This document shows, in pieces, positions 1,025 to 28,371 of a stretch of 64,000 nucleotides of DNA. The notes under the pieces are model-generated. The model was not told where the DNA came from. It saw only the letters and a list, made by a program, of their open reading frames with translations, and ran no database searches. The number at the start of each line of letters is the position of its first letter. Position 1 is the first letter of the stretch. Location of the stretch: contig NZ_JANQCD010000003.1 of NCBI RefSeq assembly GCF_026672275.1, positions 1-64,000 on the forward strand, written 5' to 3'. This DNA is from Marinifilum sp. D737. GTDB taxonomy: Bacteria; Bacteroidota; Bacteroidia; Bacteroidales; Marinifilaceae. The position numbers and the translations under genes are program-made.

Positions 1025-1054
1025 TGTGCTACGAATTATGGGGTGTGTAGCACA
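1025..1054 (+). terminator. Hairpin in the spacer after the M23 gene
   Basis: TGTGCTAC (1025-1032) pairs with GTAGCACA (1047-1054), and the stem is followed by TTTATTTT. It lies about 120 bp after the M23 stop codon and may be its terminator, or part of a dispersed GTGC-rich repeat. Apart from this hairpin and the promoter candidate at 1210-1241, nothing else was found in the spacer 907-1365. Confidence 0.35.
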
Positions 1055-1209
1055 TTTATTTTCCTGTATTAAGAAAACCTTAATAATATGGTAAAGTTGA
1101 AAATCAACCTTACATTCTATATAATTGCTATAAATGATTCTTAATAAATGATAAAGTGTTTGTTAATCCTGATTAAAGGTTTTGAGTAGTGAAACCGTTA
1201 TGGAATTTA

Positions 1210-6094: not shown

Positions 6095-6619
6095 ATGCAA
6101 GCCTTAAGAAGGCCTTACTTTTGGCACGCGATTTATACCAAATCGCGTGCAGAAAAGAGGCTGTACAAAGAATTGTGCTCAAAGAATATTGAGTGCTACC
6201 TTCCTTTAAAAAAAGAGCTTCGTCAGTGGAGCGATCGAACCAAATGGGTTGAAGAACCATTGATTCGATCTTATTTGTTTGTGAAAGTCAGTGAAAGGGA
6301 GTATTACAACGTAATCAATTCTGCTTACGCTGTTGGATATGTAACTTTTGGTGGCAAAGCTGTGCCTATACCTGAACATCAGATTCAGGCTCTTCGAATT
6401 TTTCTGGAGGATGAAAATCGCAAAGTAGATTTAAGTCATGAGAATTTGGAAAAAGGAGAATTGGTAGAAATAATGGGTGGTCCTTTCAAGGGAATCAAAG
6501 GCGAGATCATTCAAATAAAAGGCAAGGATCGTATTGTAATCCGATTCGATTCTTTGGGAACTTGTGTTTATACTGATATTTCGTTAGACAAGATTAAACA
6601 AGTTCAACCCGTCGCTTGA
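6095..6619 (+). CDS. UpxY/NusG-like transcription antiterminator, first gene of the polysaccharide locus
   Basis: This 174-aa NusG paralogue has an NGN domain (about 8-100; FWHAIYTKSRAEKRLYKEL is typical) and a C-terminal KOW domain (about 115-170; GELVEIMGGPFKGIKGEI). In Bacteroides, UpxY proteins head capsule operons and let RNA polymerase pass termination signals in the leader of their own locus. It stands alone at the head of a ~29-kb same-strand cluster, separated from the next gene by 196 bp holding a weak terminator-like hairpin. The likely role is locus-specific processive antitermination. No UpxZ-like partner gene follows, unlike the Bacteroides fragilis loci. Confidence 0.85.
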   Translation: MQALRRPYFWHAIYTKSRAEKRLYKELCSKNIECYLPLKKELRQWSDRTKWVEEPLIRSYLFVKVSEREYYNVINSAYAVGYVTFGGKAVPIPEHQIQALRIFLEDENRKVDLSHENLEKGELVEIMGGPFKGIKGEIIQIKGKDRIVIRFDSLGTCVYTDISLDKIKQVQPVA

Positions 6620-6658: not shown

Positions 6659-6815
6659 TATGAATAAATGAAGTCTAACTTCGTTAAATTCTATTTAAAT
6701 AAAACCACTATTTAAATAAAATTTGCCTGGTTACTCTTCTTTTTCATCGATAAAAAACTCTAAAAACAAATTTAAACAGCTTCTGATTACAGTATCGCAG
6801 AAATCAGAAAATTTT

Positions 6816-8102
6816 ATGAGTAAGTTTGAAGTAGTTACCACAATTGGATTGGGGTATATCGGACTTCCTACGGCCTCACTTATTGCTAGAAGTGGGATTC
6901 GTGTGCAAGGAGTAGATGTAAATCCAAAGGTAGTAGAGGCAGTAAATTTGGGTGAAATTATTATTGTAGAACCCGATTTGGATGAGTTGGTGCATCAGGT
7001 TGTAGAGGACAATTTGCTTTCCGCTTATACCGAAGTTCAGGAAGCTGATGTTTATACCATTGCGGTTCCAACTCCTTTTAAGGGAAATCACGAACCCGAT
7101 ATTTCATATGTAATGGATGCCACCAAGGCAGCAATTCCGGTATTAAAAGAAGGCGATTTATTCATTATAGAATCCACGTCACCGGTTGGAACTACCGAGA
7201 AGGTGAGAGATTTAATATATGCCAAACGCCCTGAGCTGGAAGATCGAATATTTATCGCCTATTGTCCGGAACGTGTACTTCCAGGGAATATCATTTACGA
7301 GTTGGAGAACAACGATAGGGTAATTGGTGGAATTGATGAAATGTCGACCGAAATGGCATGTGAATTCTTCCGAAACTTTGTGGTAGGAGAACTTCACAAA
7401 ACAAACTCTCGAACTGCCGAAATGTGTAAGCTGGTTGAGAATTCTTCTCGCGACGTACAAATCGCATTTGCCAACGAACTATCAGTGATTTGCGAAAAGG
7501 CAGGAATTAATGTTTGGGAGTTGATTGAATTGGCCAACAAGCATCCAAGGGTAAATATACTTAGTCCGGGTTGTGGTGTAGGTGGTCATTGCATTGCTGT
7601 AGATCCTTACTTTATTGTTTCTGAATATCCTTTGGAAAGTCAAATCATTGGTAAAGCACGCGAAATCAATAATTACAAGGCATTTTGGTGTGTCGAGAAA
7701 ATTAAAAATGCACGATTGCAGTTTCAGTTAGATCGTGGGTATGAACCCAAAATTGCAGTAATGGGATTGGCTTTTAAACCTAATATCGATGATTTAAGAG
7801 AATCGCCAGCCATGTATATCGCCAATAAAATTACGCAATCGCAACAGGATGATTACTTAATTGTTGAGCCTAATATTGAAGAGCATCCAAGCTTCCAGAT
7901 TTGTGATTACCAGATTGCTTTCGATATGGCAGATATGATTGTTTATTTGGTGGCACACAATGAGTTCAAAAACCTTCCATTTTCTGATGAGAAAGTAATT
8001 CTCGATTTCTGCGGAGTTACCAATCACCAGGAGAAAATCTTTAATGAAATTCCTGTTGAAATTCCTAAGCCAAGGGAGAACAAAAGGAAGAAGTTAAGAT
8101 AA
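6816..8102 (+). CDS. wecC: UDP-N-acetyl-D-mannosamine dehydrogenase (WecC-type)
   Basis: It oxidises UDP-ManNAc to UDP-ManNAcA with two NAD+. The start is ATG 6816 (MSKFEVVTTIGLGYIGLPTA), giving 428 aa; a longer TTG frame from 6723 adds a non-homologous leader. The Rossmann motif GLGYIG is at residues 11-16. The stretch EIIIVEPDL resembles the WecC signature, and the catalytic Cys259 sits in GVGGHCIAVDPY. The central and C-terminal UDP-sugar dehydrogenase domains are complete. The UDP-GlcNAc 2-epimerase that makes its substrate follows at once, which supports WecC over UDP-glucose dehydrogenase. Confidence 0.9.
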   Translation: MSKFEVVTTIGLGYIGLPTASLIARSGIRVQGVDVNPKVVEAVNLGEIIIVEPDLDELVHQVVEDNLLSAYTEVQEADVYTIAVPTPFKGNHEPDISYVMDATKAAIPVLKEGDLFIIESTSPVGTTEKVRDLIYAKRPELEDRIFIAYCPERVLPGNIIYELENNDRVIGGIDEMSTEMACEFFRNFVVGELHKTNSRTAEMCKLVENSSRDVQIAFANELSVICEKAGINVWELIELANKHPRVNILSPGCGVGGHCIAVDPYFIVSEYPLESQIIGKAREINNYKAFWCVEKIKNARLQFQLDRGYEPKIAVMGLAFKPNIDDLRESPAMYIANKITQSQQDDYLIVEPNIEEHPSFQICDYQIAFDMADMIVYLVAHNEFKNLPFSDEKVILDFCGVTNHQEKIFNEIPVEIPKPRENKRKKLR

Positions 8103-8128: not shown

Positions 8129-9364
8129 ATGATTAAGAAAATGAGTGATAATAATAAATATAGAGTATTGTTGGTTTTTGGTACTCGGCCAGAAGCTATT
8201 AAAATGGCACCTTTGGTTAAGGAGTTTCAGAAATATCCGGAACAGTTTGAAACCATAGTATGTGTAACAGGCCAACACCGCGAGATGTTGGATCAGGTGT
8301 TGAATCTTTTCGAAATCGTACCTGAATATGATTTGCAAATCATGAAATCAGGTCAGGATTTATACGATGTTACCAGCCGAGTTTTAATAGGTATGAGAGA
8401 TGTATTGAAAGTGGCAGATCCAGATTTGGTTCTGGTTCATGGCGATACTACCACATCATCCACAACGGCTTTGGCGGCTTATTATCAGCAAATTCCTGTG
8501 GCTCATATCGAGGCAGGTTTGCGTACCAATAATTTGTATTCTCCTTGGCCCGAGGAAGCCAACAGACAGATTACAGGTCGTTTGGCTCAGTGGCATTTTG
8601 CACCAACCATAATGGCACAAAAGAATTTAATGGATGAAGGAATTTCAAAAAGCAGAATTGTGGTTACTGGCAATACTGTGATTGATGCGCTTCAGCTTAC
8701 GCTTACAAAAATACATCGCTCTTCGAAAGTGGTTATGGATATTGTGAATGTGTTGCAAGCCAAAGGAATTTCTACCGGTCGGGTTGCCGAGTGGGTATAT
8801 CGAACCCGCAAAATGGTATTGATTACAGGACATAGAAGGGAAAATTTTGGAAGAGGATTTTTAAATATATGTGAGTCAATTAAGTTTTTAGCTGAGAAAC
8901 ATCCGGAAGTAGATTTTGTATATCCGGTTCATTTGAATCCTAATGTTCAAAAACCAGTTTATGATATTTTAGGACAAGGAGCAGATTCAGAAAGCAACTC
9001 AAATAACAATATCTTCCTAATTGATCCGATTGATTATCTGCCATTTGTTTACCTGATGGATTTATCTTACTTGATACTTACCGATTCGGGAGGCATCCAG
9101 GAAGAGGCGCCATTCCTGGGCAAACCAGTTCTTGTAATGAGGGATACAACGGAAAGACCGGAAGCTTTAACTGCTGGAACAGTAAAGTTGGTTGGTACGG
9201 ATTCTCAGAAAATCATAGAATCGGTTGACTTGTTGTTCCATGAAGATGCAACTTATCGAAAAATGGCTCAGTCCATCAATCCATATGGTGATGGGAAAGC
9301 TTGCATCAGGATTGTACAGGAATTGAAAAAAGCATCATCCATTCGGGAACGTATTGTTGCCTAG
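8129..9364 (+). CDS. wecB: UDP-N-acetylglucosamine 2-epimerase (non-hydrolysing, WecB-type)
   Basis: It interconverts UDP-GlcNAc and UDP-ManNAc, supplying the dehydrogenase upstream. The protein is 411 aa and a second ATG four codons in (8141) is equally possible. Family motifs are clear: FGTRPEAIKMAPL near the N-terminus, GDTTTSSTTALAAYY, HIEAGLRT, ITGHRRENFG, and DSGGIQEEAPFLGKPVLVMRDTTERPE split over the C-terminal half. A stretch before ITGHRRENFG (VLQAKGISTGRVAEW) is longer than in E. coli WecB. It is 26 bp from the dehydrogenase gene and 12 bp from the flippase gene, so all are probably co-transcribed. Confidence 0.93.
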   Translation: MIKKMSDNNKYRVLLVFGTRPEAIKMAPLVKEFQKYPEQFETIVCVTGQHREMLDQVLNLFEIVPEYDLQIMKSGQDLYDVTSRVLIGMRDVLKVADPDLVLVHGDTTTSSTTALAAYYQQIPVAHIEAGLRTNNLYSPWPEEANRQITGRLAQWHFAPTIMAQKNLMDEGISKSRIVVTGNTVIDALQLTLTKIHRSSKVVMDIVNVLQAKGISTGRVAEWVYRTRKMVLITGHRRENFGRGFLNICESIKFLAEKHPEVDFVYPVHLNPNVQKPVYDILGQGADSESNSNNNIFLIDPIDYLPFVYLMDLSYLILTDSGGIQEEAPFLGKPVLVMRDTTERPEALTAGTVKLVGTDSQKIIESVDLLFHEDATYRKMAQSINPYGDGKACIRIVQELKKASSIRERIVA

Positions 9365-9376
9365 CTTTACAAAAGC

Positions 9377-10810
9377 ATGTCTGATTTAAAGAGCAAAACC
9401 ATTAAAGGCGTTTTCTGGAGCTTTGTGGAAAAGTTTGGGAGTCAATTTATCCTTTTGATATCGCAAATTATTTTGGCCAGATTGTTAGAGCCCCGGGATT
9501 TTGGTTTACTTGGGATGCTTGCCATTTTTATCGCGGTATCGCAGGCCTTTATCGATAGTGGTTTTGATAATGCTTTGATACAGAAAAAGAATGCTGATCA
9601 GATAGATTTTTCAACGGTATTCTTCTTTAATATTAGCATAGGAATAGTTCTTTACCTGATCTTGTTTTTTGCAGCTCCTTTGATTGCTGATTTTTTTAGA
9701 ACCCCTGAACTGGTGGATCTTACAAGAGTAGTTTGCTTGATTTTGGTGATCAACTCTTTTGGCTTGATTCAATTTGTAAAGTTCAAGATCGACATGAATT
9801 TTAAAGCCATTGCACAAGTTGTTGTAGCAGCAAATATTTTGTCGGCAGTATTAGGAGTTAGTTTGGCATTATTGAACTTTGGAGTATGGGCTTTGGCTGC
9901 ACAGGTAATGGGTATATATGTATTTAGAACCCTATTGTTTTGGATCAGGAGTTCCTGGCGACCAAGTCTGGTTTTTTCAATCAAGTCATTTAAAGGTTTA
10001 TTCAATTTTGGATCGAAGTTGTTGTTGTCAGGATTGATTAGTCAGACGTTTGAAAACATTTATTTGCTGGTAATTGGTAGAATGTTCTCAGCTACGGCAT
10101 TGGGATTTTACGATCAGGCTAAAAAATTTCAGCAAGTACCCGTTGCTACTTTGGCACAGGTTGTTGGCAACGTTACATTTCCTGCTTTTTCAAAAATTCA
10201 GGATGAGGATGAACGCCTTCGAATGGGATTCAGAAAACTCATTAAGCTTTTGGTCTTTATCAATTTTCCATTAATGATTGGACTGGCTGTAATGGCTGAA
10301 CCATTGTTTTCAATTGTTTTGGGAGAAAAATGGATGCCATCTGTTCCTTACTTTCAACTCTTGTGTATTGCAGGTATGATCTACACATTGCATTCATCAA
10401 ACCTGAACATTCTTAAGGTAAAAGGACGATCCGATTTATTTCTTTACCTGGAAATCATTAAAAAAATATTTGTTGTATTGGCAATTGTTATTGGCTTGCA
10501 ATGGGGAATAATGGGATTAATTATTGGACAAATAGTAACCTCTTTCATAAGCTTTTTTATCAATGCATATTATACGGGGAAATTAATTTCCTACTCAACC
10601 ATCAACCAAATTAAAGACGTGAGTCAAACCTTTTTAATCACTCTTGTGACTGCTGCAGTTATGAGCATTGGTTGGTTAATACAAAATCAGATTCTTTCAC
10701 TCTCTTTTCAGATACTGGCAGGTATCGGTACATACCTACTATTGGCTTGTGCTACAAAACAAGAAGCAGTTAGCGATGGTATTTTAATTCTTAAAGAACT
10801 TAAAACCTGA
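9377..10810 (+). CDS. wzx: Wzx-type polysaccharide flippase (WzxC-like, MOP superfamily)
   Basis: This 477-aa polytopic inner-membrane protein has about 12 hydrophobic segments. The N-terminal KTIKGVFWSFVEKFG and ARLLEPRDFGLLGMLAIF are typical of the WzxC/polysaccharide-synthesis branch. It should flip the undecaprenyl-diphosphate-linked repeat unit to the periplasmic face for the polymerase at 15963-17228. It lies 12 bp after wecB and about 40 bp before the aminotransferase gene. Confidence 0.88.
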   Translation: MSDLKSKTIKGVFWSFVEKFGSQFILLISQIILARLLEPRDFGLLGMLAIFIAVSQAFIDSGFDNALIQKKNADQIDFSTVFFFNISIGIVLYLILFFAAPLIADFFRTPELVDLTRVVCLILVINSFGLIQFVKFKIDMNFKAIAQVVVAANILSAVLGVSLALLNFGVWALAAQVMGIYVFRTLLFWIRSSWRPSLVFSIKSFKGLFNFGSKLLLSGLISQTFENIYLLVIGRMFSATALGFYDQAKKFQQVPVATLAQVVGNVTFPAFSKIQDEDERLRMGFRKLIKLLVFINFPLMIGLAVMAEPLFSIVLGEKWMPSVPYFQLLCIAGMIYTLHSSNLNILKVKGRSDLFLYLEIIKKIFVVLAIVIGLQWGIMGLIIGQIVTSFISFFINAYYTGKLISYSTINQIKDVSQTFLITLVTAAVMSIGWLIQNQILSLSFQILAGIGTYLLLACATKQEAVSDGILILKELKT

Positions 10811-15006: not shown

Positions 15007-15966
15007 ATGGTTAGGGCGATTGGTGGATATTTTGAGTTGGAGAACCGATTCGAATCGGAGTACTATCCGAATTTAATTCGTTTAAATACCGGACGAAACT
15101 GCCTGGAGTACATCCTAAGAGCTCGAGCATATCAAAAAATATATTTGCCTGAATATTCTTGTGATGCAGTCATGGAGCCCATTTTAAAATTGGGACTGGA
15201 ATATGAGAAGTACCCAATTAATATGCAGTTGGAACCAGATCAACTTATTGATCCGGAAAAGGATGAGGCCTTTTTGGTAATCAATTACTTTGGATTAAAA
15301 GGGAGGTATGTGAACTTTTTGACAAGGCGTATGCACAATTTAATAGTGGACAATTCTCAGGCTTTTTTTGAAGAGCCAGCGCAAGGCTTCGATACCTTTT
15401 ATTCGGCAAGAAAGTTTTTTGGAGTAAGCGATGGAGCCTATTTGAGTACCGATAGTGCACCATATATGGATTTTAAGCAAGAGGTATCGTGGAAAAGAAG
15501 TGAGCACTTGTTGCGAAGACTGGAGAATGGTCCTAATGATGGATATCCGGCATTCAAAAGAAATGAAGCGTATTTGTGTGGTCAGGAGATAAAATTGATG
15601 TCGGATTTAACCTACAGAATTCTATCGAGTATCGACTATGCTGCAGTTAAAAGCAGGAGGAATCGTAATTTTCAATATCTACACTTAAAGTTGAAAGGAT
15701 ACAATGGCTTAAGCATTAATGATGCGGATATTGATGGACCAATGGTTTATCCTTTTTATGTGGAAAATGATGATTTGCGAAAAGAATTGATGCTGCAGGA
15801 AATCTATACTGCAAGCTATTGGCCAAGTGTAACCCAAAATGTTGAATCGGATAAACTAGAATATAAATTGGCCAAATATCTCATTCCACTTCCTGTAGAT
15901 CAGCGCTACGGCTTATTAGATATGGATAGGATTTGCAAATTGATCATACAATTGTTGAAGCAATGA
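15007..15966 (+). CDS. Short DegT-like PLP-fold protein
   Basis: This 319-aa protein is only distantly like the aminotransferase at 10851 but keeps its two key residues. LIVDNSQAFF (Asp115) lines up with YDAAHAFG, and FYSARKFFGVSDGAYL (Lys136) with the Schiff-base lysine segment. It is about 75 residues shorter than standard DegT enzymes; the sequence before Asp115 and after Lys136 is divergent. It may be an active aminotransferase with a reduced fold or a PLP enzyme of other activity. Its stop codon overlaps the next start (ATGA at 15963), so it is translationally coupled to the polymerase gene. The fold assignment is inference from motif spacing. Confidence 0.65.
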   Translation: MVRAIGGYFELENRFESEYYPNLIRLNTGRNCLEYILRARAYQKIYLPEYSCDAVMEPILKLGLEYEKYPINMQLEPDQLIDPEKDEAFLVINYFGLKGRYVNFLTRRMHNLIVDNSQAFFEEPAQGFDTFYSARKFFGVSDGAYLSTDSAPYMDFKQEVSWKRSEHLLRRLENGPNDGYPAFKRNEAYLCGQEIKLMSDLTYRILSSIDYAAVKSRRNRNFQYLHLKLKGYNGLSINDADIDGPMVYPFYVENDDLRKELMLQEIYTASYWPSVTQNVESDKLEYKLAKYLIPLPVDQRYGLLDMDRICKLIIQLLKQ

Positions 15967-17228
15967 AGTATATCGAAATCGCATTTTGGTTTCTCATCTT
16001 TTTTGTAGCTTTTTACCTAAAAGGATTTACAGTTGGGGGACAGGAGTTGGTTTACTTGTGGAAACTGCCTTTACTGTTGTTCTTGATCTCGCGAGTAGTT
16101 GGTCAGGAAACAAAGCATGCCTTTTTAGTGCTGGCCTACTTATTTGCAGCTAAGAATTTGGTGAATGTATCATTCTTTAAGTTCCCGGTAGATTCTATTA
16201 TCAATTTTATAAAGTATTTAACCATACCGATTTTTGTGCATTGGATTTACCTTAATATTAATAGTGCGAGTACATTAAAAAAGTTAAGGTTGGTACCTGT
16301 CTACATGGCAGCCTTTTTTATCGTGTGCAACATTCCCTACTACCTGGGAGTGTTTGCTGCACCAGTAACCACAATGTTGTGGATGGAGGACACACAAATT
16401 GATGGATTAATTGGAATGCTCGGAGCACCACATTATACGTCGGCAGTGCTGGCAGTTGCAAGTGTAGTGCTTCTTGATTTTGTGGTTAATAAAAGAGGGA
16501 ACTTTAAAGTGAATTTTATCGTGATTCCCATCCTGATTATAGGTGTGTTTTTTCTTTTTAAAACCTATACAAGAACAGGTTGGATGATGTTTTTGGTTGG
16601 TGTTATCGTTTTATTTGCCAGAAAAGTATCTTTTAAAAACTTAGGGAAAATTGCTGTTTTTGGAGTACTGATGGCAATTGGTTTGTCGGTATTGTTTCAA
16701 ACCAACGAGGGATTTCGAAGAAGGATCATGGATGAACGGGCAGGGCAGGAAGACAAATCGGCTTATGAAACTGTAGGATCTGGTCGTATACAAATAGCTG
16801 ATATTTATCTGACCAATCTTTATGAAAGCAACTTTGTTACCTATCTGTTTGGCATGGGAATGGAAGAATCGATGCGAAGGTATGAACAGAAAGATGGCAT
16901 GCCTTTATTTGCTCACAATGGATTTATTCAAACTTTAGTTGACAATGGAATTATTGGTTTCGTGTTGTATATGTTATTTCTGATCACACTTTACAGGGCC
17001 ATTGCAGGGGCCGAAAGTAGTCACAATCAATTGACAATGGCAATGTTTTTTATGTTTCTGTCATGTTTGGCTACTCAGCAAGCCAATTATTTTCTGGTGG
17101 ATGTATTTCTTTCCATTTACATTGGAATTGCTTTGATTGAATCAAGGGTAAATCATTATATCGATTTTAAAAGGAAATCTGACATTTACAAAAACATGAA
17201 GCCCTCATATCCTTTCTATAAAAGATAA
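15963..17228 (+). CDS. wzy: Wzy-type polysaccharide polymerase / O-antigen ligase-like membrane protein
   Basis: This 421-aa protein has about ten transmembrane segments and a large periplasmic loop (about 240-310: NEGFRRRIMDERAGQ onward). It ends with the Wzy_C pattern AHNGFIQTLVDNGIIGFVLYM. TRTGWMMFLVGVIVLF before the loop is also typical. ATG 15963 was chosen because it overlaps the previous stop as ATGA and puts the first membrane segment at the N-terminus; the TTG at 15933 adds ten polar residues. It should polymerise repeat units at the periplasmic side of the inner membrane, after Wzx. It is not an exosortase. Confidence 0.82.
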   Translation: MKYIEIAFWFLIFFVAFYLKGFTVGGQELVYLWKLPLLLFLISRVVGQETKHAFLVLAYLFAAKNLVNVSFFKFPVDSIINFIKYLTIPIFVHWIYLNINSASTLKKLRLVPVYMAAFFIVCNIPYYLGVFAAPVTTMLWMEDTQIDGLIGMLGAPHYTSAVLAVASVVLLDFVVNKRGNFKVNFIVIPILIIGVFFLFKTYTRTGWMMFLVGVIVLFARKVSFKNLGKIAVFGVLMAIGLSVLFQTNEGFRRRIMDERAGQEDKSAYETVGSGRIQIADIYLTNLYESNFVTYLFGMGMEESMRRYEQKDGMPLFAHNGFIQTLVDNGIIGFVLYMLFLITLYRAIAGAESSHNQLTMAMFFMFLSCLATQQANYFLVDVFLSIYIGIALIESRVNHYIDFKRKSDIYKNMKPSYPFYKR

Positions 17229-17238
17229 GATCACATAA

Positions 17239-18381
17239 ATGTATAGCTTTAGTTTAATTACATTAGAAGACCTTCAGCAGATTGAGTATTCCAGTAAGTT
17301 TCCGGGGACTCAGACTTCTTGGATTTCAGATTGGTATCATACTTTCAAAAAGCATAACGATAATCATTTCGGGCTTGATAAAAAAGCTTACATCCTTACT
17401 GCTTATGAGGGAAATAAGTTGGTTGCCATTGTACCTTTACTGAGGCTAACGCGAACCTATTTCAAATACTTTAAATTACAGTTTCTTGAATTTCTTGGGC
17501 AGCAATGGTCAGGAATGGGGCATGATATTATTGTAATCAGGGAGCTAGAAGCTGGTTTTGTTGAAGAGCTGTTCTATTGGATCAAAAGAAACATTTCCTA
17601 TCATTTTATATTTCTTAAATATCTACCATCGGGTAGTAGCTTAAAATCTAAGTTTCGTTTTTATCGATATGCGGGAGCTCCGTTTGTTCAAACATCTTCT
17701 TTTTCCGATTACGAAAGGTTTCGATTAAAAGTGTACTCCAGAAAATTCAGAGAAGATCTTCGCAGAACCTATCGAAGAATTAAAAGAGATGGATTTAAAA
17801 TGGAGGTAGAACAACATGAAATTAATGAATACAGTTTAGCGGCCATTAGAAATATTTCTGCAAGTAAAACTACTGATGGGAAAAGTGATTTGTATGAGAA
17901 CAAACTCAAGGAAGATTTTCATTTAAAGATATACAGGCAAAACCCATCAAAAGTGGTTTTTATAAAGTTTAATGGTGAAGCTGTAGCTTATGGTACTTTG
18001 ATAGATATTAATGGACAAAGGATTGGTGTTGATTCGGCTTTTGATAGAAAATTCAGAAAATATGGAGTTGGAATTCATTGTATTGACCAGATAATTCGTG
18101 ATGGCTTTGATGACAAGGTTCAAAAATTATCATTCGGATTAGGAATGGATACCTATAAGTTTCAGTTTACCAATTGCATAGAAGAGTTTTTTATGTGCTA
18201 TGACTTTAAAATCAGATTGAAGTCGTTATTTGTGTTGCCTTATTTTCATTACCGTATAAAAAAAATGAATCAGGATGTTTCTGCAGTTATGGAGAGAAAT
18301 AAGCAGCAAGCAAAACCTGGATCAGAGAATGATAAAACCTCTAATGACAAATTCAATTTTGTTGAAAGTGTTGAGATATAG
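17239..18381 (+). CDS. FemAB/GNAT-type acyltransferase, paralogue 1 of 3
   Basis: This 380-aa soluble protein is of the BioF2-like/CelD GNAT group (PF13480). The N-terminal half carries a conserved FLEFLGQQWSGMGHDIIVI, the middle a basic KFREDLRRTYRRIKRDGF, and the C-terminal GNAT half AVAYGTLIDINGQRIGVDSAFDRKFRKYG with GVGIHCIDQIIRDG. Proteins of this group are found in exopolysaccharide loci and transfer acyl or amino-acyl groups in the better-known Fem members; the donor here is unknown. The C-terminus after ~350 is a charged low-complexity tail. Two close paralogues follow in tandem, so a triplication has occurred. Confidence 0.8.
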   Translation: MYSFSLITLEDLQQIEYSSKFPGTQTSWISDWYHTFKKHNDNHFGLDKKAYILTAYEGNKLVAIVPLLRLTRTYFKYFKLQFLEFLGQQWSGMGHDIIVIRELEAGFVEELFYWIKRNISYHFIFLKYLPSGSSLKSKFRFYRYAGAPFVQTSSFSDYERFRLKVYSRKFREDLRRTYRRIKRDGFKMEVEQHEINEYSLAAIRNISASKTTDGKSDLYENKLKEDFHLKIYRQNPSKVVFIKFNGEAVAYGTLIDINGQRIGVDSAFDRKFRKYGVGIHCIDQIIRDGFDDKVQKLSFGLGMDTYKFQFTNCIEEFFMCYDFKIRLKSLFVLPYFHYRIKKMNQDVSAVMERNKQQAKPGSENDKTSNDKFNFVESVEI

Positions 18382-18423
18382 ATTATTTATTGCTCGCAAC
18401 GAAGTTTAATGCCCTAGGTTCTA

Positions 18424-19602
18424 ATGTATCGTTTCGAAACCATTTCGATTGAAGAACTCGAAAATTTTGAATACAACACCAATTGTCCTAGCTGTAGATT
18501 CGAATGGATTTATAGTTGGTATCAGGTTTTTGAGAAAGTGGAAAACAATATTGTTGGGTTCAAAAAGAAGCCCTTCATCATTCTTGTTTATAAGGAGAAC
18601 AAGTTGGTTGCAATTGTTCCATTATTAAAATTAGTAAGGATATACTTTAAGTGTATTCGCATATCCTTTCTTGAATTTTTTGGTCAGCAATGGTCAAGTT
18701 TAGGGAATGATATTTTATTAGTGGGGGAAGTTGATAAACTCTTATATCGTGAATTAAAGCGTTGGATCAGTAAAAACATTTCCTATGATTTCATTTTCTT
18801 AAAGTACATACCAAAGCAGTCCGAATTGGTCAAGAGTTTCCGATTGTTTCATTATTCAGTTGCTCCCTGTCTGCAATTAAATAGATATAAAGAATATCAG
18901 GATTTCAATAAACAAGTATACTCTAAAAAGTTTAGAGAAGAACTTAAACGTACCTCAAGAAAGTTGGCAAGAGAAAATTTAGAGTATACCATAGAGGTTA
19001 AAGAAATTAATAAGGAAAATTTAAAATTGATTAAGCACATCTCAAAATCAAAGGAGATAGATGGCAAAAGCTTTTTATATGCCAACTCAGAAAAAGAAGC
19101 ATTTCATTTAAGTATTTATCAGAGTTTTCCATCTCAGATGATATTGCTAAAGTTAAATGATGAGATTGTTGCCTATTCTACCTCAATTGATTGGCAAGGG
19201 AAACGATTGGCAATTGATTCATCTTTTGATAGGAGATTTCGAAAATATGGTATTGGAATACACTGTGTTGATTCTTTTATCAGGAATGCATTTGATGATA
19301 AGATGAAGAAATTATCATTGGGTATGGGACATGATTCTTACAAGTTTAGGTTTTGTGACGATATGGATCAATTTTTTATGTGTTTTGATTACAAAATCAG
19401 TTGGAAATCATTATTGGCTTTGCCCTACTTTAAGTACAGATTAATTAAAATAGACAAAGAAGTACAATCAAAAATCCAAAAGATATCCGCAGTCATACAA
19501 AAAAATAAGCAAAAGAGTAGAAGCAAGGAAGAATTAGAAGTAAAAACGAACAATCAAACCTCTAATAATAGAAAAAATATTACTGAGCGTATTGAAATGT
19601 AG
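18424..19602 (+). CDS. FemAB/GNAT-type acyltransferase, paralogue 2 of 3
   Basis: This 392-aa protein is colinear with its neighbours: MYRFETISIEELENFEYN at the start, FLEFFGQQWSSLGNDILLV, KKFREELKRTSRKL, and FDRRFRKYGIGIHCVDSFIR with LSLGMGHDSYKFRF near the C-terminus. It is visibly more AT-rich and lysine-rich than paralogue 1 and has a longer charged C-terminal tail (about 350-392). All the motifs shared by the three copies are intact, so it is unlikely to be a decaying duplicate. It is separated by 42 bp from copy 1 and 39 bp from copy 3. Confidence 0.8.
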   Translation: MYRFETISIEELENFEYNTNCPSCRFEWIYSWYQVFEKVENNIVGFKKKPFIILVYKENKLVAIVPLLKLVRIYFKCIRISFLEFFGQQWSSLGNDILLVGEVDKLLYRELKRWISKNISYDFIFLKYIPKQSELVKSFRLFHYSVAPCLQLNRYKEYQDFNKQVYSKKFREELKRTSRKLARENLEYTIEVKEINKENLKLIKHISKSKEIDGKSFLYANSEKEAFHLSIYQSFPSQMILLKLNDEIVAYSTSIDWQGKRLAIDSSFDRRFRKYGIGIHCVDSFIRNAFDDKMKKLSLGMGHDSYKFRFCDDMDQFFMCFDYKISWKSLLALPYFKYRLIKIDKEVQSKIQKISAVIQKNKQKSRSKEELEVKTNNQTSNNRKNITERIEM

Positions 19603-19641
19603 AATGGTATAATATCTAAAGAGTTTAAACCCTAAAACCTA

Positions 19642-20718
19642 ATGTATAATTTTAAAACCATTTCAATTAAAGAACTTGAGAACTTGCAATACAAAGCAAA
19701 TTTTCCTAGCAATAGATTCGAATGGATTAATAGTTGGTATGAGGTTTTCGAGAAAGTGGAAAACAATGTAATAGGCTTTCAGAAGCAGGCTTATATTGTA
19801 ACTGCTTATGAAAACAACCAATTGGTAGCCATTATTCCTCTTGTAAAGCTAATTCGTAAGTTTTGTAAATGTATAAAGCTCGAATTTGTTGAGTTTCTTG
19901 GACAGCAATGGTCCTGTATTGGACATGATTTAATTGTGCTAAAAGAATTAGATTCTAGTTTTATAAAGCAGCTTCTTAGCTGGATTAAAAAGAACATTCG
20001 CTATCACTTCATTTTTTTCAAGTATGTTCCTAAAAAATCGATTCTGACAAAAGACTTTAAAATGTATCGATATTCGGGAGCTCCCATGATTTGTATTTCG
20101 GACTACAAGGATTATAATGAGTTTGCCGAAAAGGTTTATGCAAAGAAGTTTCGGAAGAAGTTAGACAGAACCTTACGAAAGATTGAAAAAGATGGATTTC
20201 GTTTAAGCTTGTCCTACGAGGAAATCAACTCATCCAATTTTGAGACCATTAAAAGAATATCGAAATCAAAAATGCTGGATGGAAAAAGCTTTGTATATGA
20301 TGATGTAAACAAGGAAAAGTTTCATAAAAGTCTGTACAGTAAGTTTCCATCGCATGTAATGTTTGCCAAGTTTAATGATTACCCGGTTGCCTATGTAGCA
20401 AATATAGATTGTGATAATGCAAGGATTGCCATTGATTGTGCTTTCGATCGCGATTATAGAATTTATGGAGTAGGCGTTCAGTGTATGGATTGTAACATTC
20501 GAAAGTCATTTTCGCTGAACAAGGAGAAATACTCTTTCGGAGTTGGCATGGATGTATATAAGTTCCAGTTCACAAAAACAGCAATGCCATTTTACATGTG
20601 TTTTGGCCTGCAGAATAGACTGAAATCATTTTTAGCAAAGCCATTTGTTTTGTATAGAGCAAAGAAATCAGATATAAAAGCCAAACAGGAATTTGAAGGA
20701 GTAGAGGAATACATATGA
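19642..20718 (+). CDS. FemAB/GNAT-type acyltransferase, paralogue 3 of 3
   Basis: This 358-aa copy starts MYNFKTISIKELENLQYK, very close to copy 2, and lacks most of the charged tail of the other two. The shared motifs are FVEFLGQQWSCIGHDLIVL, KKFRKKLDRTLRKIEKDGF and FDRDYRIYGVGVQCMD with FGVGMDVYKFQF. Its central region (SSNFETIKRISKSKMLDGKS) matches copy 2 more than copy 1. The stop overlaps the start of the deacetylase gene (ATGA at 20715), so the two are translationally coupled. A deacylation step next to acyl transfer fits remodelling of sugar amines. Confidence 0.8.
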   Translation: MYNFKTISIKELENLQYKANFPSNRFEWINSWYEVFEKVENNVIGFQKQAYIVTAYENNQLVAIIPLVKLIRKFCKCIKLEFVEFLGQQWSCIGHDLIVLKELDSSFIKQLLSWIKKNIRYHFIFFKYVPKKSILTKDFKMYRYSGAPMICISDYKDYNEFAEKVYAKKFRKKLDRTLRKIEKDGFRLSLSYEEINSSNFETIKRISKSKMLDGKSFVYDDVNKEKFHKSLYSKFPSHVMFAKFNDYPVAYVANIDCDNARIAIDCAFDRDYRIYGVGVQCMDCNIRKSFSLNKEKYSFGVGMDVYKFQFTKTAMPFYMCFGLQNRLKSFLAKPFVLYRAKKSDIKAKQEFEGVEEYI

Positions 20719-21626
20719 AGAAATTAATTGCCAACATATTGGGATACCTATTGCTGTTGATATTTGGTAAAACCGCTTTAAAACAGTTCGATAAGCAAGT
20801 GTTATCCATCTATTTTCACGATCCGTCGCTTGTCCTTTTTAAAGGAATCATCGGTTTTTTATTTTCGAAAGGCTTCAGGTTCATTTCGGAAGAAGAATAT
20901 TTTCAGATCATAAATGGAGAGAAAGATGTAAAAGGAAGAACTGCCTTTATTTCCTTTGATGATGGCTGGAAAGGCAATTTAAAATTGATTCCAATTCTTG
21001 AGAAATATCAAATACCAGCAACTTTCTTTATTCCCGTTCGACCGGTAATAACAGGAAACTTTTGGTGGGAGTATGCAGCTAAAGTGGTAGAGGAAAATCA
21101 GCAATTTAAATCAGTTGAAGAAGTAAAGAAATTACCAAATGATAGTAGGATGCAGTTAATCCGAGGTGCAGCTGCCAGATATGATTTAAAGAGATCTTGT
21201 ATCGAACTTTCGGAATTAAAACGCTTGAGTGAAAATCCATTCATTACAATTGGATCTCACACCTATCATCATCCGATTACTATAAAATGTTCGGATGAGG
21301 AGTTGGATTTTGAGTATCGTGAATCAAAAAAAACATTGGAAGAGTGGTTGTCGGTAGAAATTAATTCATTTTCCTTTCCCAATGGCGACTATAACCAAAG
21401 AGATTTGGATTTGCTGAAGAAGTACAATTACAAGATGGCTTTTACTGTAAATCCTGAATTGAATTCGAACTTCATTTCTGAGTTTCAGATTCCAAGAGTC
21501 TCCATCAATTCGAATGGAGGAAAATATGAGAACATTGCGCGCATGCTTCGGGTTTGGCACAAATTTGTTCAGCCGCTGCAGCAAAAGCAAGCATTGCTAT
21601 TCAATCCTAAATTATCAGGAAGTTAA
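20715..21626 (+). CDS. Polysaccharide deacetylase (NodB/CE4), first of two
   Basis: This 303-aa protein has a NodB fold at about 75-250. The catalytic pair is Asp82-Asp83 in SFDDGW and the metal histidines are His182 and His186 in GSHTYHHP. A conserved SFPNGDYN follows. CE4 enzymes remove N- or O-acetyl groups from sugars. The N-terminus has one hydrophobic stretch (about 7-18) but no clean signal cleavage site, so it may be membrane-anchored. It is coupled to the third acyltransferase gene through the ATGA overlap. Confidence 0.85.
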   Translation: MKKLIANILGYLLLLIFGKTALKQFDKQVLSIYFHDPSLVLFKGIIGFLFSKGFRFISEEEYFQIINGEKDVKGRTAFISFDDGWKGNLKLIPILEKYQIPATFFIPVRPVITGNFWWEYAAKVVEENQQFKSVEEVKKLPNDSRMQLIRGAAARYDLKRSCIELSELKRLSENPFITIGSHTYHHPITIKCSDEELDFEYRESKKTLEEWLSVEINSFSFPNGDYNQRDLDLLKKYNYKMAFTVNPELNSNFISEFQIPRVSINSNGGKYENIARMLRVWHKFVQPLQQKQALLFNPKLSGS

Positions 21627-21640
21627 AATCATTTAAGCGG

Positions 21641-22723
21641 ATGAAAGAGATTCTATACATAGCACCAGGGAATCAGAATTCAAAAGGGGGAATTGGATTG
21701 TGTGTAAACAATTATTCAAAACACATGTCCAACTTTAAGGTTTTGGTTACGCATCGGTTTAAGTCCAAATTGATAAATTCCTTGTGGTTCCCAATTTGTA
21801 TTGTGGAGTTGTTGTGGATTTTGATTAAAGATCGGGATATTAAAATTCTTCACATTCATGGGGCATCGAAAGGTAGTTTTTACAGGAAGTACATACTTTA
21901 TGCATTTGCAAGAGCATTTTCCAATAAGAAAATCATCTACCACATACATGGAGGTGGGTTTCGGGACTTTTACCTGGGATCGTCAAGGTTTATTCAGCGT
22001 AGAATACGATATGTAATTAATACTGCGGATATGGTGATTTGCTTGTCGGAAAAATGGAAGCACTTTTACACCAGTGCCTTTAAGCCAAAACGGATTAGAA
22101 TCTTAAATAATATGATTCTTCCTCCGCTTAACACAGAGCGAAAGCCATCCAATGATAAATTTAGCTTGTTATTCCTGGGATTAATTGGTGACAACAAAGG
22201 CATTTTCGACTTGATTAAAATTATTGCAAAAAACAGGAGCCAATTTGAGGATAAACTGGAGCTCGTGATCGCTGGAAATGGGGAAGTGGATCGATTGACC
22301 AATACCATTTCGAAATGGAAGATGCAGGAAATCATTCATTTTAAAGGTTGGGCCAACGAAGAAAAGAAAGAAGAGTTGTTCCGATCATCGGATGCATTTA
22401 TTTTGCCATCCTATAAAGAAGGTTTGCCTTTGTCCATTCTTGAAGCCATGAGCTATGGTTTGCCTATAATATCAAGTAAGGTGGGAGGGATTCCAGATTT
22501 GATTCACAAAGGGAAAAATGGAATACTTGTGGTTCCCGGTAATCAAAGAGCCATTAAAAATGCAATCGTCAAGTTGATGACAAACCAAGCTCTTTGCAAA
22601 AACTACTCACAAAATTCAACAAGAGCAGTTGTTGATTTTTATCCAGATCATGTATTAAAAACATTATTCTCAATCTACCATGAATTACAGGGGAATAAGG
22701 GATTACTTTTTGAGCAAAATTAA
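21641..22723 (+). CDS. Family 4 glycosyltransferase
   Basis: This 360-aa GT-B retaining glycosyltransferase starts ILYIAPGNQNSKGGIGLCV. It contains IIYHIHGGGF in the acceptor half and SLLFLGLIGDNKGIFDLIKII and FILPSYKEGLPLSILEAMSYGLPIISSKVGGIPDLI in the donor half; the E-x7-E-like motif lies in the last segment. It transfers one sugar in repeat-unit assembly. Its last 44 nt overlap the start of the CapK-like gene at 22680, and the overlap is real because that start is supported by a paralogue. Confidence 0.88.
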   Translation: MKEILYIAPGNQNSKGGIGLCVNNYSKHMSNFKVLVTHRFKSKLINSLWFPICIVELLWILIKDRDIKILHIHGASKGSFYRKYILYAFARAFSNKKIIYHIHGGGFRDFYLGSSRFIQRRIRYVINTADMVICLSEKWKHFYTSAFKPKRIRILNNMILPPLNTERKPSNDKFSLLFLGLIGDNKGIFDLIKIIAKNRSQFEDKLELVIAGNGEVDRLTNTISKWKMQEIIHFKGWANEEKKEELFRSSDAFILPSYKEGLPLSILEAMSYGLPIISSKVGGIPDLIHKGKNGILVVPGNQRAIKNAIVKLMTNQALCKNYSQNSTRAVVDFYPDHVLKTLFSIYHELQGNKGLLFEQN

Positions 22724-24008
22724 ATTCGGTATCGGGTTTGAAAGGGAATTGAAAAGAATAGAGAAGCTATACTCAATTAGTGAATCCCAATTGTCAGAAT
22801 TAAAAAACAAAGAATTTGTAAAGCAGTATCGAAATGCCTACCTAAATTCCAAGTTCTACAATGAGTTGTATCGAAAGCATGGCTTAAGTGTACATTCGGT
22901 AAAATCGATTGACGACGCAGAAAAAATACCAATCATTACAAAAGATGACATTAGGCATTGTGTTGATGATTTGTTGACTACAAACCGTTTGTTTGTATAC
23001 AAGGCCTTCACAAGTGGAACCACTGGTTCGCCATTAAAATTGTATCGCGATTATCAGTCGGTTTGCAAGGAATACTCCTACGGATACTATTTTCAGAATA
23101 TCCATGGATACGAGCTGGGCGATAAGGTGATATCCATAAAAGGAGATTTGGACAAGGATAAGATTTCGAGGTTTGACAAGGCCTTGAATACATTGCATTT
23201 ATCGAGTTATAATCTGAACGAAAAGAACATCCTAAAGTATTATGAATTGATTAAGGAGTTTGAACCCAAAGTGGTTAAGGCTTATCCTAGTTCATTACAG
23301 ATTTTATCGACAGAACTGTACAAAAAAGGATTGGATTTGTACATTCCGATTGCATTTACTTCATCTGAAGTATTGCACGATTGGCAACGACGAATTATTG
23401 AAAGGATACTGCATTGCGAAGTGATAGATTGGTATGGAAATTCGGAGCAAACCATTGCTTTGGGACAGGTAAAAGAAAACTTGTATCAGGATGTTCCATT
23501 GTATGGGCATATTGAGGTAAAAGAAAATCACATCATCACTACGGGATTCATCAATAAATCATTCCCACTAATTCGTTACCAGGTAGATGATATCATCGAG
23601 TTAAAGTGTGATGCGAGTTGTATTCGTTGTTGCACCGAACGAATAATGGGTCGCGACAATCAATATGTAAGGTTAAAGAATGGGCAGCAGGTTGGCTTAC
23701 TCGATCATGCATTTAATTTCAACAACATTAAAAATATTCTGGCTGCACAAATTGTTCAGAAAGTGCCAGGTGAAATCGATTTGAATATTATACCTGATTA
23801 CAATTTTACAGAGCAAGATAAGGTAGAATTGCTAAAGAATCTTACACAGTTGGTAACAGAAGATTGTAAGATTCATTACAATGAGATAACAGAGGATCAG
23901 ATCATAAAAACAAAGGCTGGTAAGTTTAATTTGATGGTTTCCTATTTGGATACCAAGGATAAGGATGCTACGGCAAAGGAGATTTTGAAGGCGATAGATA
24001 CAGCTTAA
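22680..24008 (+). CDS. CapK/phenylacetate-CoA-ligase-like adenylate-forming enzyme, copy 1
   Basis: This 442-aa protein has the AMP-binding loop FTSGTTGSPLK at about 109-119, IAFTSSEVL and DWYGNSEQT further on, and the C-terminal ATP-dependent part with RIMGRDNQYVRL. Such enzymes activate a carboxylic acid as an adenylate. CapK relatives are common in polysaccharide loci and are mostly uncharacterised. The start at 22680, overlapping the GT4 gene by 44 nt, is supported because the next paralogue (24150) aligns residue for residue from its own Met to KIKFG. The acid it activates is unknown. Confidence 0.83.
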   Translation: MNYRGIRDYFLSKIKFGIGFERELKRIEKLYSISESQLSELKNKEFVKQYRNAYLNSKFYNELYRKHGLSVHSVKSIDDAEKIPIITKDDIRHCVDDLLTTNRLFVYKAFTSGTTGSPLKLYRDYQSVCKEYSYGYYFQNIHGYELGDKVISIKGDLDKDKISRFDKALNTLHLSSYNLNEKNILKYYELIKEFEPKVVKAYPSSLQILSTELYKKGLDLYIPIAFTSSEVLHDWQRRIIERILHCEVIDWYGNSEQTIALGQVKENLYQDVPLYGHIEVKENHIITTGFINKSFPLIRYQVDDIIELKCDASCIRCCTERIMGRDNQYVRLKNGQQVGLLDHAFNFNNIKNILAAQIVQKVPGEIDLNIIPDYNFTEQDKVELLKNLTQLVTEDCKIHYNEITEDQIIKTKAGKFNLMVSYLDTKDKDATAKEILKAIDTA

Positions 24009-24018
24009 AAGATTTGTA

Positions 24019-24117
24019 AACCACGAATTTTACAGATTACACGAATAGATTCATATTTTGGTTTATGTGAATTGTTTGATGATTTATAATTCGTAAAAAT
24101 TAGTAAAATTCGTGGTT
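24019..24117. repeat. 99-bp element with 15-bp perfect inverted termini
   Basis: AACCACGAATTTTAC (24019-24033) is perfectly complementary to GTAAAATTCGTGGTT (24103-24117). The interior also has partial copies of the ACGAAT/ATTCGT motif, so the element folds into a long imperfect hairpin. It fills most of the 141-bp gap between the two CapK-like genes. It could be a miniature repeat, an mRNA-stability element or a recombination remnant from the duplication. Confidence 0.65.
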
Positions 24118-24149
24118 CATACAAAGATAATTCGTAATTAGTTGATGAT

Positions 24150-25415
24150 ATGGCAGTACAGTTAATAAAAGATTTGATTGCCTATAAAATAAAATTTGGC
24201 AGAGCATTCGAGCGTGAATTGCGACGGATTATTGAACTGGATCAAATGTCTAAAGCTGAGATTTTAGAATTGAAAAGTGAGGAGTTTGTGAAGCAATATC
24301 GTAATGCTTATACCAATGCTGAATTCTACAAACAATTCTACAAAAAGCATGGATTGAATCTTTATTCAGTAAAAGATTTGTCTGATAAGAACAAACTACC
24401 AACTATTTCGAAGCTGGATGTTCGTAATCATGCCAAAGCGATGTTGACTAAACCAAAATTGTGCGTATTTAAAGCTTATTCGAGTGGAACAACAGGTACA
24501 CCATTACAGGTTTACAGAGATTTTTCATCTACAATAAAAGAATATGCTTATGGTCATTTTTTCCAGCAAATGCATGGCTATCATTTGGGTGATCCGGTTG
24601 TATCCTTACGGGGAACTTTAAACCGAAATACATTTTCCTATTTCGATAAAAGCAATAATGTATTGTATTTGTCATCCTATCACTTAAAGTCGGAAAGAAT
24701 TGATGAATACTACAAGCTGATAAAAGATTTTAATCCCAAGGTAATTAAGGCCTATCCGAGTTCCATGCACATTCTGGCTACCGAATTGCACAAGAAAGAT
24801 TTGAGTTTAGGCATTCCGATTGCATTTACATCATCGGAAGTATTGCATGGATTTCAGAAAGAGATTGTCGAGAAAACACTGAATACAAAAATATACGATT
24901 GGTATGGCAATGCAGAGCAAACAGTTGCGCTGGGGCAGTTCGAGGATGAATTGTATCGTGAGTTTCCATTGTATTCCCATACCGAGTTCGAAGATGATCA
25001 TTTGATTACCACAAGCTTTATCAACTCTGCTTTTCCATTGATCCGTTATCGTGTTGATGATGTGGTGCAATTGGCTGATTGTAGCAATGGTATATGTGTG
25101 ATCAAAAAGATTGAAGGCAGAGACGATGATTACATTGTTTTAAAAGATGGTCAACGAATTGGTCGACTTGATTTGGCCTTTAAAAAAGCTAAGAATTTGT
25201 TAGCAGCTCAAATTGTGCAAGATGAACCTGGTATTATTCGGGTAAACCTGATTCCGGATAAGAGATTTGATAAGAGAGATTTGGATGTAATAGAATTGAA
25301 CTTGCGCGATTTACTTGGGGATGAATGCATGATTCGTTTTGATAAAATAGAAACAGATCAGTTGATTAGAACAGCCAAAGGGAAATTTAACCTTGTAGTT
25401 TCCCAGCTTAAATGA
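24150..25415 (+). CDS. CapK/phenylacetate-CoA-ligase-like adenylate-forming enzyme, copy 2
   Basis: This 421-aa paralogue of the upstream gene starts MAVQLIKDLIAYKIKFG and carries SSGTTGTPLQVYRDFSS, IAFTSSEVLHGFQKE, DWYGNAEQTVALGQ and the C-terminal IEGRDDDYIVL. Copy 1 has the cysteine-rich CDASCIRCCTERI before this last motif, whereas copy 2 has ADCSNGICVIKKI, so their substrates may differ. It is 21 residues shorter at the C-terminus. The high similarity and tandem order show local duplication. Confidence 0.83.
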   Translation: MAVQLIKDLIAYKIKFGRAFERELRRIIELDQMSKAEILELKSEEFVKQYRNAYTNAEFYKQFYKKHGLNLYSVKDLSDKNKLPTISKLDVRNHAKAMLTKPKLCVFKAYSSGTTGTPLQVYRDFSSTIKEYAYGHFFQQMHGYHLGDPVVSLRGTLNRNTFSYFDKSNNVLYLSSYHLKSERIDEYYKLIKDFNPKVIKAYPSSMHILATELHKKDLSLGIPIAFTSSEVLHGFQKEIVEKTLNTKIYDWYGNAEQTVALGQFEDELYREFPLYSHTEFEDDHLITTSFINSAFPLIRYRVDDVVQLADCSNGICVIKKIEGRDDDYIVLKDGQRIGRLDLAFKKAKNLLAAQIVQDEPGIIRVNLIPDKRFDKRDLDVIELNLRDLLGDECMIRFDKIETDQLIRTAKGKFNLVVSQLK

Positions 25416-27282: not shown

Positions 27283-28371
27283 ATGATATCATTGTGTTTG
27301 ACCTTAGACTATGAGTTATTTGGATCGGGAAGAGGCAATGTGTTTACGCACATTATAGAGCCTACCAACCGTTTGCTGGCCATTTGTTCTACGTATGGAA
27401 TGAAGCTTACCATATTCTTCGAGGTGGTAGAATATTGGAAACTGAAGGAAGTTTATGAGAGTGGTGAATCGATGGGATACGAAAGAAACCCTGCCGAATC
27501 CATGGCCAATCAGATTAAGAAAGCTCATCAGTTGGGACATGATATTCAACTGCACATTCATCCGCAATGGGTTGATGCCCAGTATGAGGACGGAGAGTGG
27601 AAATTGAATATGGATTACTGGAGATTGCCAGAAGTGCCGGATCAGGCCAATGAGCAAATTAGTATGGGCTTAAGCGAATTGATTCGCAAAGGGAAAGAGG
27701 AATTGGAGGGGATTCTTCAACCAATAAAACCTGATTACAAGTGCAATGTGTTGCGGGCAGGTGGATACAATATCGATCCATCGGAACGATTGTTGAAAGC
27801 ATTAAAAGAGAATGAATTTATAGCCGATAGCTCGGTTTATTATGGAGGCAAAGCCGAGAGTGAGCTGTCGAAATACGATTATACCTGTGTAAAGAAGGAA
27901 ACTCCTTATTGGTTTACCAATGGCTCTTTGTTAGCTGTCAGCAAGAATGAAAAGGAGTTTGTAGAGTTGCCTGTTTTTGCAAAAAGAATCAGAAGAATTT
28001 CAAAATACGATTTGGTGAGGATTTGCTCTGCTTTAAAGAACAAGGCGAATTCTATTGAAAAGTTTAAGAACAACAGTACTAAAAAAACGAAATGGGAAAC
28101 CATCCAATTCTTAATGAATAAAGAAGCCGTTACCTGGGATTTTTGCCTGTTCTCGAAATCGAAAATGCGGAAGTTCTTTAATGCAGCTATCAAGATCAGG
28201 GAAAACTCTAAAGCATCCTTTCATCCTTTTGTATTGGTAGGACATCCAAAAGATTTCTACTACTCCGATGCCATTGAGTTTTTGGCCAAAAAAGCATCAG
28301 GAGGAAAGTTAAAGTTTTTAACGATTGGTGAAGCCATTGTTCAAATTAAAGAAACACACAAGCAGAAATGA
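27283..28371 (+). CDS. Polysaccharide-deacetylase-like protein (second, divergent)
   Basis: This 362-aa protein of the NodB/CE4 superfamily is unlike the copy at 20715. Its N-terminal CLTLDYELFGSG supplies an acidic motif (LDYE in place of FDDG) and GHDIQLHIHPQW the metal histidines. VLRAGGYNIDPSERLLKAL is the next conserved block of this subfamily. The changed acidic motif means hydrolysis is likely but not certain. Its stop overlaps the next start (ATGA at 28368), so the downstream alpha/alpha-toroid protein is translationally coupled and probably works on the same molecule. Confidence 0.78.
   Translation: MISLCLTLDYELFGSGRGNVFTHIIEPTNRLLAICSTYGMKLTIFFEVVEYWKLKEVYESGESMGYERNPAESMANQIKKAHQLGHDIQLHIHPQWVDAQYEDGEWKLNMDYWRLPEVPDQANEQISMGLSELIRKGKEELEGILQPIKPDYKCNVLRAGGYNIDPSERLLKALKENEFIADSSVYYGGKAESELSKYDYTCVKKETPYWFTNGSLLAVSKNEKEFVELPVFAKRIRRISKYDLVRICSALKNKANSIEKFKNNSTKKTKWETIQFLMNKEAVTWDFCLFSKSKMRKFFNAAIKIRENSKASFHPFVLVGHPKDFYYSDAIEFLAKKASGGKLKFLTIGEAIVQIKETHKQK

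Follow-up and report, generated by a model that had tools for sequence, protein, structure and literature searches.

Tandem GNAT-type acyltransferase paralogues of Marinifilum sp. D737 as candidate N-acyltransferases of an exopolysaccharide locus

The first 64,000 nucleotides of contig NZ_JANQCD010000003.1 of Marinifilum sp. D737 (assembly GCF_026672275.1), referred to here as the window, carry three tandem acyltransferase genes, named A, B and C. They probably (about 0.6) encode HfsK-like N-acyltransferases of the GNAT superfamily that serve one Wzx/Wzy exopolysaccharide and use a coenzyme A (CoA)-type donor to acylate amines freed by a deacetylase. In the proposed pathway, the neighbouring polysaccharide deacetylase would free the amine on an amino sugar, and A, B or C would then N-acylate it from the CoA-type donor. 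The acyl donors may be supplied by two PaaK/CapK-like ligases encoded downstream. A and C would be an old duplicate pair with separate roles, differing in the sugar, the position or the acyl group, and B would be a C/A chimera, the product of an unequal crossover of these two genes. Direct results of the analysis are the family membership, the intact conserved residues and purifying selection of the three proteins, the type of locus and its conserved gene order, the varying number of copies, and recombination; N-acylation of the polysaccharide by the three proteins would follow by analogy. The most useful new points, in our view, are that B is chimeric and that the copy number varies between one and three.

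The three genes are complete open reading frames arranged head to tail on the + strand at 17239–20718 of the window, which agrees exactly with the coordinates of an earlier note on this DNA.

17239 to 18381, + strand: gene A, an Acetyltransf_6 (GNAT-type) acyltransferase of 380 residues, about 40 of them in a C-terminal tail (open reading frame; PF13480, E-value (E) 9.4e-11).
18424 to 19602, + strand: gene B, a paralogue of 392 residues with a tail of about 50 residues (open reading frame; PF13480, E 8.3e-12).
19642 to 20718, + strand: gene C, a paralogue of 358 residues without a long tail (open reading frame; PF13480, E 1.8e-07).

The proteins share 48–49% identity in pairwise comparison (186/380, 171/358 and 171/358), far above chance, and the three colinear paralogues described in the earlier note are thus borne out. 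GQQWS (residue 87) and FDR (residue 268) are common to A, B and C, and KFR is aligned at residue 169 in all three, with a second KFR in A at residue 138. The longer FLGQQWS that had been reported as shared is not complete in B, which reads FFGQQWS. Divergence was said to lie in the central substrate regions. This holds only weakly, since the differences are spread along the whole protein: identity is 42–50% in residues 101–166, 44–57% in the core at 236–296 and 38–45% in the KFR helix. The C-terminal tails do differ as claimed. Among 23 aligned proteins that include A, B and C, a set used for all motif, tail and family counts below, the long tail is present only in the A and B copies of Marinifilum and in the A copy of G011 (G numbers denote genomes). 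A-type copies outside those genera stop at residues 357–360, and the long tail was rejected as a hallmark of A.

All three proteins belong to PF13480 (Acetyltransf_6), with 42.5 bits for A, 45.9 for B and 31.9 for C against a Pfam gathering score of 22 bits. The family was matched by 23/23 aligned proteins (E 1 or better), and at E 0.001 the genome has four PF13480 matches, three of which are A, B and C; the fourth (G000:C39:45872-46246) was not recovered with A or C as query. No NCBIfam model was matched by A, B or C at E 0.1. PF02388 (FemAB) gave no match for A, B or C at E 0.1, was absent from the nine families matched by the 23 aligned proteins at E 1, and had no match in the whole genome at E 0.001, while 3/14 control genomes were positive. 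A [RKQ]xxGxG motif at residue 273, in some proteins with K first, was found in 22 of the 23 proteins, the exception being the distant G009_X. It reads RKYGVG in A, RKYGIG in B and RIYGVG in C, and we take it to be the motif by which GNAT enzymes bind the pyrophosphate of CoA (Q/R-x-x-G-x-G/A); it suggests a CoA-type donor. S-x-G-x-G-x-D-x-Y-K-F (residues 298–308 of A) and QQW (88–90 of A) are present in every aligned protein.

The three genes are under purifying selection within Marinifilum. The ratio of nonsynonymous to synonymous substitution rates (dN/dS) over 26 orthologue pairs was 0.043–0.187, with 0.078–0.187 for A (10 pairs), 0.117–0.179 for B (6 pairs) and 0.043–0.083 for C (10 pairs), which indicates that all three copies are maintained. 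Decayed copies were rejected because the reading frames are intact and dN/dS is low. The family's conserved residues are kept; together with the purifying selection, this makes it probable that A, B and C are active, in line with the earlier note.

The genes lie in a Wzx/Wzy exopolysaccharide locus, with a Wzy-type polymerase directly upstream of A and a polysaccharide deacetylase gene whose first 4 nucleotides are also the last 4 of C.

6723 to 8102, + strand: UDP-sugar dehydrogenase (PF03721, E 4.8e-48).
8129 to 9364, + strand: UDP-GlcNAc 2-epimerase family protein, contributing to amino-sugar supply in the locus (PF02350, E 7.5e-114).
9377 to 10810, + strand: Wzx-type flippase (PF13440, E 2e-93).
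15933 to 17228, + strand: Wzy-type polymerase (PF04932 Wzy_C, E 6.3e-14); the start is that of the listed open reading frame, which begins later in some relatives.
20715 to 21626, + strand: polysaccharide deacetylase (PF01522, E 4.2e-21; SFDDG and HTYHH motifs).
21641 to 22723, + strand: GT4 glycosyltransferase (PF00534, E 2e-38).
22680 to 24008, + strand: PaaK/CapK-like adenylate-forming ligase 1 (NCBIfam CoA-ligase models, all below curated cut-offs; TSGTTGSP, YGNSE, GRDN).
24150 to 25415, + strand: PaaK/CapK-like adenylate-forming ligase 2 (TIGR02155, E 6.2e-19, below cut-off; SSGTTGTP, YGNAE, GRDD).
30424 to 31827, + strand: priming sugar transferase (PF02397, E 6.8e-70).

The locus also encodes a DegT aminotransferase, a GT2 glycosyltransferase, a WbqC-like protein, an ATP-grasp protein and a WecG family protein, together with Wza-type (export) and Wzc-type proteins. 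The three motifs listed for each ligase are presumably adenylate-forming motifs, and ligase 1 is a possible acyl-activating enzyme. The two ligases are paralogues, about 53% alike in cross-species comparisons; the tandem pair (22680–25415) stands together in 16/17 related loci, and only one is present in G009. A NusG-family gene (PF02357) at 6095–6619 heads the locus; in the capsule loci of Bacteroides, UpxY-type antiterminators occupy a similar place. The protein encoded at 27283–28371 has, by eye, a deacetylase-like LDYEL start, gave no Pfam match at E 0.01 and has homologues in related loci.

The 5' end of B differs in origin from the rest of the gene.

18424 to 18549, + strand: 5' tract of B derived from the C lineage, the first 126 nucleotides (84% DNA identity to C, 56% beyond).

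A–B and A–C DNA identity is 52–60% in both the first 126 bases and the rest. Synonymous divergence (dS) between B and C is 0.49 in the tract, and the other paralogue comparisons gave values above 1.7 or were not computable; conserved protein sequence therefore does not explain the identity of the tract. In the protein tree, residues 1–45 of B group with C of Marinifilum (0.937), and from about residue 100 onwards the protein groups with the A copies of Marinifilum and G011 (0.938); residues 1–100 taken together are ambiguous, with the C copies at 0.42 only. A 3SEQ-like permutation test of B gave p 0.0019 on DNA (0.0026 when repeated) and was weaker on protein (p 0.022). The C-like tract occurs in all four species with B (81–84% identity to C), and the four B copies agree with one another at 92–98% within it, so the event probably predates these species. 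These results indicate that B is a chimera with its first 126 or so bases from the C lineage and the remainder from the A lineage. A gene order of A, C-start/A-end and C is exactly the outcome expected of crossing-over between C and A. Conversion of B by C would produce an identical tract, and we infer that crossing-over is the more likely route.

Similar mosaics were found in other genomes. G044_2 (genus g12) is 92–97% identical to a C gene over the first 300 alignment columns, with the C-type tract reaching about residue 90–100, and is A/M-type thereafter (p 0.0002). The single gene of G049 is A-type up to about column 840 and resembles G044_2 at the 3' end from there on, and that of G025 is A-type and like G044_2 only at about columns 1047–1083 (both p 0.0002, the smallest value reachable with 5000 shuffles). 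Altogether 13 trios were tested. Eight were suspected trios chosen after a window scan, one of them the mirror of B, and gave p values of 0.0062 or lower; five unmixed controls gave p 0.19–0.73. Mosaic genes of the related genus lie at L051:8318-9397 and L052:8904-9983 (L numbers denote loci), and combine a C-type start with an M/A-type end or an A-type body with the 3' end of another copy. It is tentatively suggested, at less than even odds, that the slot is a small recombining array in which unequal crossing-over yields chimeras with swapped N-terminal parts and remodels acyl decoration between species.

The subfamily is confined to one bacterial family in the samples and at the sensitivity used. 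With A as query, 17/144 genomes of relatives matched (own genome included), all in one family and five genera. With C as query, 1/393 genomes of the order matched at E 1e-10, and a profile of the 23 aligned proteins matched 1/395 genomes of the phylum at the same threshold; both recovered the own genome only. A of the window is 95% identical to its counterpart in M. flexuosum, 93% in M. fragile and 89% in M. breve. The acyltransferase slot was read whole in 17 loci, namely the window, 15 other genomes and M. breve, with one genome per species; an eighteenth locus (G054), broken by a contig end, was left out of the slot counts. The order Wzy, acyltransferase slot, deacetylase, GT4 is kept in 17/17 loci, and the slot holds three copies in five loci (the window, flexuosum G001, fragile G003, breve and G015), two in eight (G002, G011, G012, G023, G033, G039, G044 and G052) and one in four (G004, G009, G025 and G049). 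The single copy of G004 was joined from two contigs with an exact 139-base end overlap inside the gene. A distant extra copy, G009_X (L043:14755-15837, about 41% identical to A), lies farther down the G009 locus beside an extra GT2 gene. By eye, there was no clear rule linking copy number to the accessory genes WbqC, ATP-grasp and DegT. Triplication of PF13480 genes is in itself not unusual: at E 1e-6 the family matched 156/296 genomes of the phylum, and among the matches listed, clusters of at least three genes within a few kilobases occur in G504, G525, G478, G615 and G714. These appear to be other subfamilies, because the 23-protein profile recovers only the own genome among 395; the table of that search does not name the five.

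The ancestry of A and C was followed in a whole-length tree of 35 rows. One clade (13 rows, support 100/99) unites the C copies of Marinifilum, G011, G009 and two more genera, and these copies are one orthologue group across five genera. The A gene has orthologues in Marinifilum and G011 in this tree, and the B rows, from 4/6 Marinifilum loci seen, are confined to that genus (4 rows, 100/100). A-type rows fall in two groups, one of 9 rows (87/91) and one of 10 rows including B (85/90), and the tree does not unite them in one clade. G015_M and G044_2 stand beside C in the whole-length tree (97/97) and with A-type copies from G012 and from their own genus in the 3' partition tree (0.937). This conflict is read as mosaicism, and the whole-length tree is therefore not trusted for these two genes. 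Since the C lineage persists beside A-type copies across genera, different substrates are favoured, and A and C are likely to be specialised. However, only five A/C diagnostic positions were found, at 75, 168, 172, 200 and 314 of A (at least 7/8 alike in each group of eight, with the residue of the other group absent), one of them a charge reversal (E172/K172), and the small number together with the recombination calls for caution. The specialisation proposed in the earlier note is favoured by the separate lineage of C.

AlphaFold2 models of A and C were built from shallow alignments of 14 and 15 sequences and are of low confidence, with a mean predicted local distance difference test score of 58.9 and a predicted template modelling (TM) score of 0.56 for A, and 61.3 and 0.46 for C. 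With these weak models, Foldseek placed FemX (1xe4) first for A (long alignment, E 1.7e-05, TM 0.30), and for C placed 6wqb (E 6.1e-06) before FemX 1xe4 (E 6.9e-06), both with long alignments; query TM-scores to FemX and other two-domain GNAT proteins were at most 0.3 for both models. VIA-align gave for A ATE1 (Z 10.8, 138 residues, 3.1 Å) and FemX 1xf8 (Z 10.3, 142 residues, 3.2 Å), and the close fits (root-mean-square deviation below 4) span only about 140 residues. For C it gave RimI (Z 10.9, 101 residues, 2.3 Å) and FemX 1xe4 (Z 9.5 at a deviation of 17.4), and the best rows were single GNAT domains over residues 187–328. By sequence, no solved structure was matched by A at E 1 or by the 23-protein profile at E 1 and 10. 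The structural matches support the GNAT fold for the C-terminal half of A and C, and little beyond that.

The earlier note had proposed that the paralogues add successive residues as Fem proteins do in peptidoglycan bridges, that is, three enzymes each adding one amino acid from aminoacyl-tRNA to peptidoglycan or a polysaccharide. The Foldseek ranks of Weissella FemX, the high places of other aminoacyl-tRNA users for A, and a weak match to TIGR03019, a FemAB-like PEP-CTERM model, in one of the 23 proteins (E 0.0022) speak for this proposal, yet the locus makes an exopolysaccharide, the residue-273 motif suggests CoA, and one to three copies in the same slot are a poor fit to three obligatory successive steps. 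Membership of the FemAB family and of peptidoglycan-bridge synthesis was rejected, PF02388 being absent from the three proteins, the aligned set and the genome, and serial addition is improbable. Somewhat less improbable, but still unlikely, is that the copies run the same reaction and that unequal recombination merely shifts their number. Redundancy or dosage of this kind would agree with the variable copy number, including the single-copy slots, with recombination among the copies and with the few diagnostic positions. It agrees poorly with C being one orthologue group across genera and with A and C being only 48% identical within one genome while each is under purifying selection, as dosage copies are expected to homogenise. 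The least probable alternative, given very little weight, is a diversity-generating array in which selection favours recombinant acyltransferases that alter surface decoration, for example against phage or predators. Mosaics in two genera, namely B (C/A), G044_2 (C 5', M/A 3'), and G049_1 and G025_1 (A body with the 3' end taken from a different copy), would fit such an array, whereas the 5' tract of B, common to all four species with B and little changed among them, points to slow change with one genome per species.

N-acylation of a deacetylated exopolysaccharide is preferred over these alternatives, and the following points weigh against it. The CoA-type donor depends on how the residue-273 motif is read. 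Many top fold matches of the weak A model are aminoacyl-tRNA users (FemX, ATE1, Sba18 and MprF), and an aminoacyl donor is possible. The five diagnostic positions are thin evidence for different substrates of A and C. In Hirschia baltica, as far as the available part of PMC8449245 goes, HfsK and its paralogues had no part in holdfast binding or biofilm in the assays used, and one paralogue was suggested to act in another polysaccharide pathway, so the role of HfsK is not universal.

The charge, stickiness and cohesion of surface polysaccharides in bacteria depend in part on the acyl groups that their amino sugars carry. Natural versions with one, two or three copies, together with the chimeras, occur in otherwise similar loci, so gene content can be compared directly with polysaccharide chemistry; such a comparison may reveal which part of the protein sets specificity. 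In the open-licence literature, no paper was recognised as being about the A, B or C genes.

Among known systems, FemX/FemABX of Weissella shares with A the GNAT fold and a long Foldseek alignment (from the weak model) at about 10% identity. Unlike the FemABX aminoacyl transferases, A, B and C lack a PF02388 match, lie in an exopolysaccharide locus and carry a CoA-type motif. The family described by TIGR03019 (FemAB family XrtA/PEP-CTERM system-associated protein) is related by setting, since PEP-CTERM systems go with exopolysaccharide loci; the available part of the PEP-CTERM paper PMC1569441 mentions deacetylases and a possible CapK protein and no FemAB. The single aligned match to TIGR03019 is not A, B or C, none of which matched it at E 0.1.

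The BioF2-like acetyltransferase of the wps-3 cluster of Actinoplanes missouriensis is presumably a PF13480 protein. Like the locus described here, wps-3 is an exopolysaccharide cluster with a polysaccharide deacetylase and a DegT-type aminotransferase, and it also contains, besides the BioF2-like acetyltransferase, a protein of the acyl-CoA N-acyltransferase fold (PMC13390465, available part). It belongs to another phylum and has a different gene order, and the two are likened by gene content alone.

HfsK of the Caulobacter crescentus holdfast, as described in the available part of PMC5362036, is a GNAT-family protein with two paralogues, CC2278 and CC1244, about 30% identical; hfsK and cc2278 do not cross-complement, and the authors were unable to say what HfsK transfers. 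In both systems a single exopolysaccharide has three GNAT-family paralogues tied to it. For HfsK, FemX is given as the nearest solved structure, and its pathway includes the deacetylase HfsH (PMC5362036). Here FemX is among the top fold matches, and a deacetylase gene lies beside the slot in every locus read. A C-terminal extension is present in HfsK and in A and B, but not in C. The HfsK genes are scattered, whereas A, B and C stand in tandem directly upstream of the deacetylase gene and are more alike (48–49% against about 30%). HfsK binds cyclic di-GMP and uses its last 25 residues for membrane association (PMC5362036). On these likenesses of family and genetic setting, HfsK of Caulobacter is the closest studied precedent for A, B and C.

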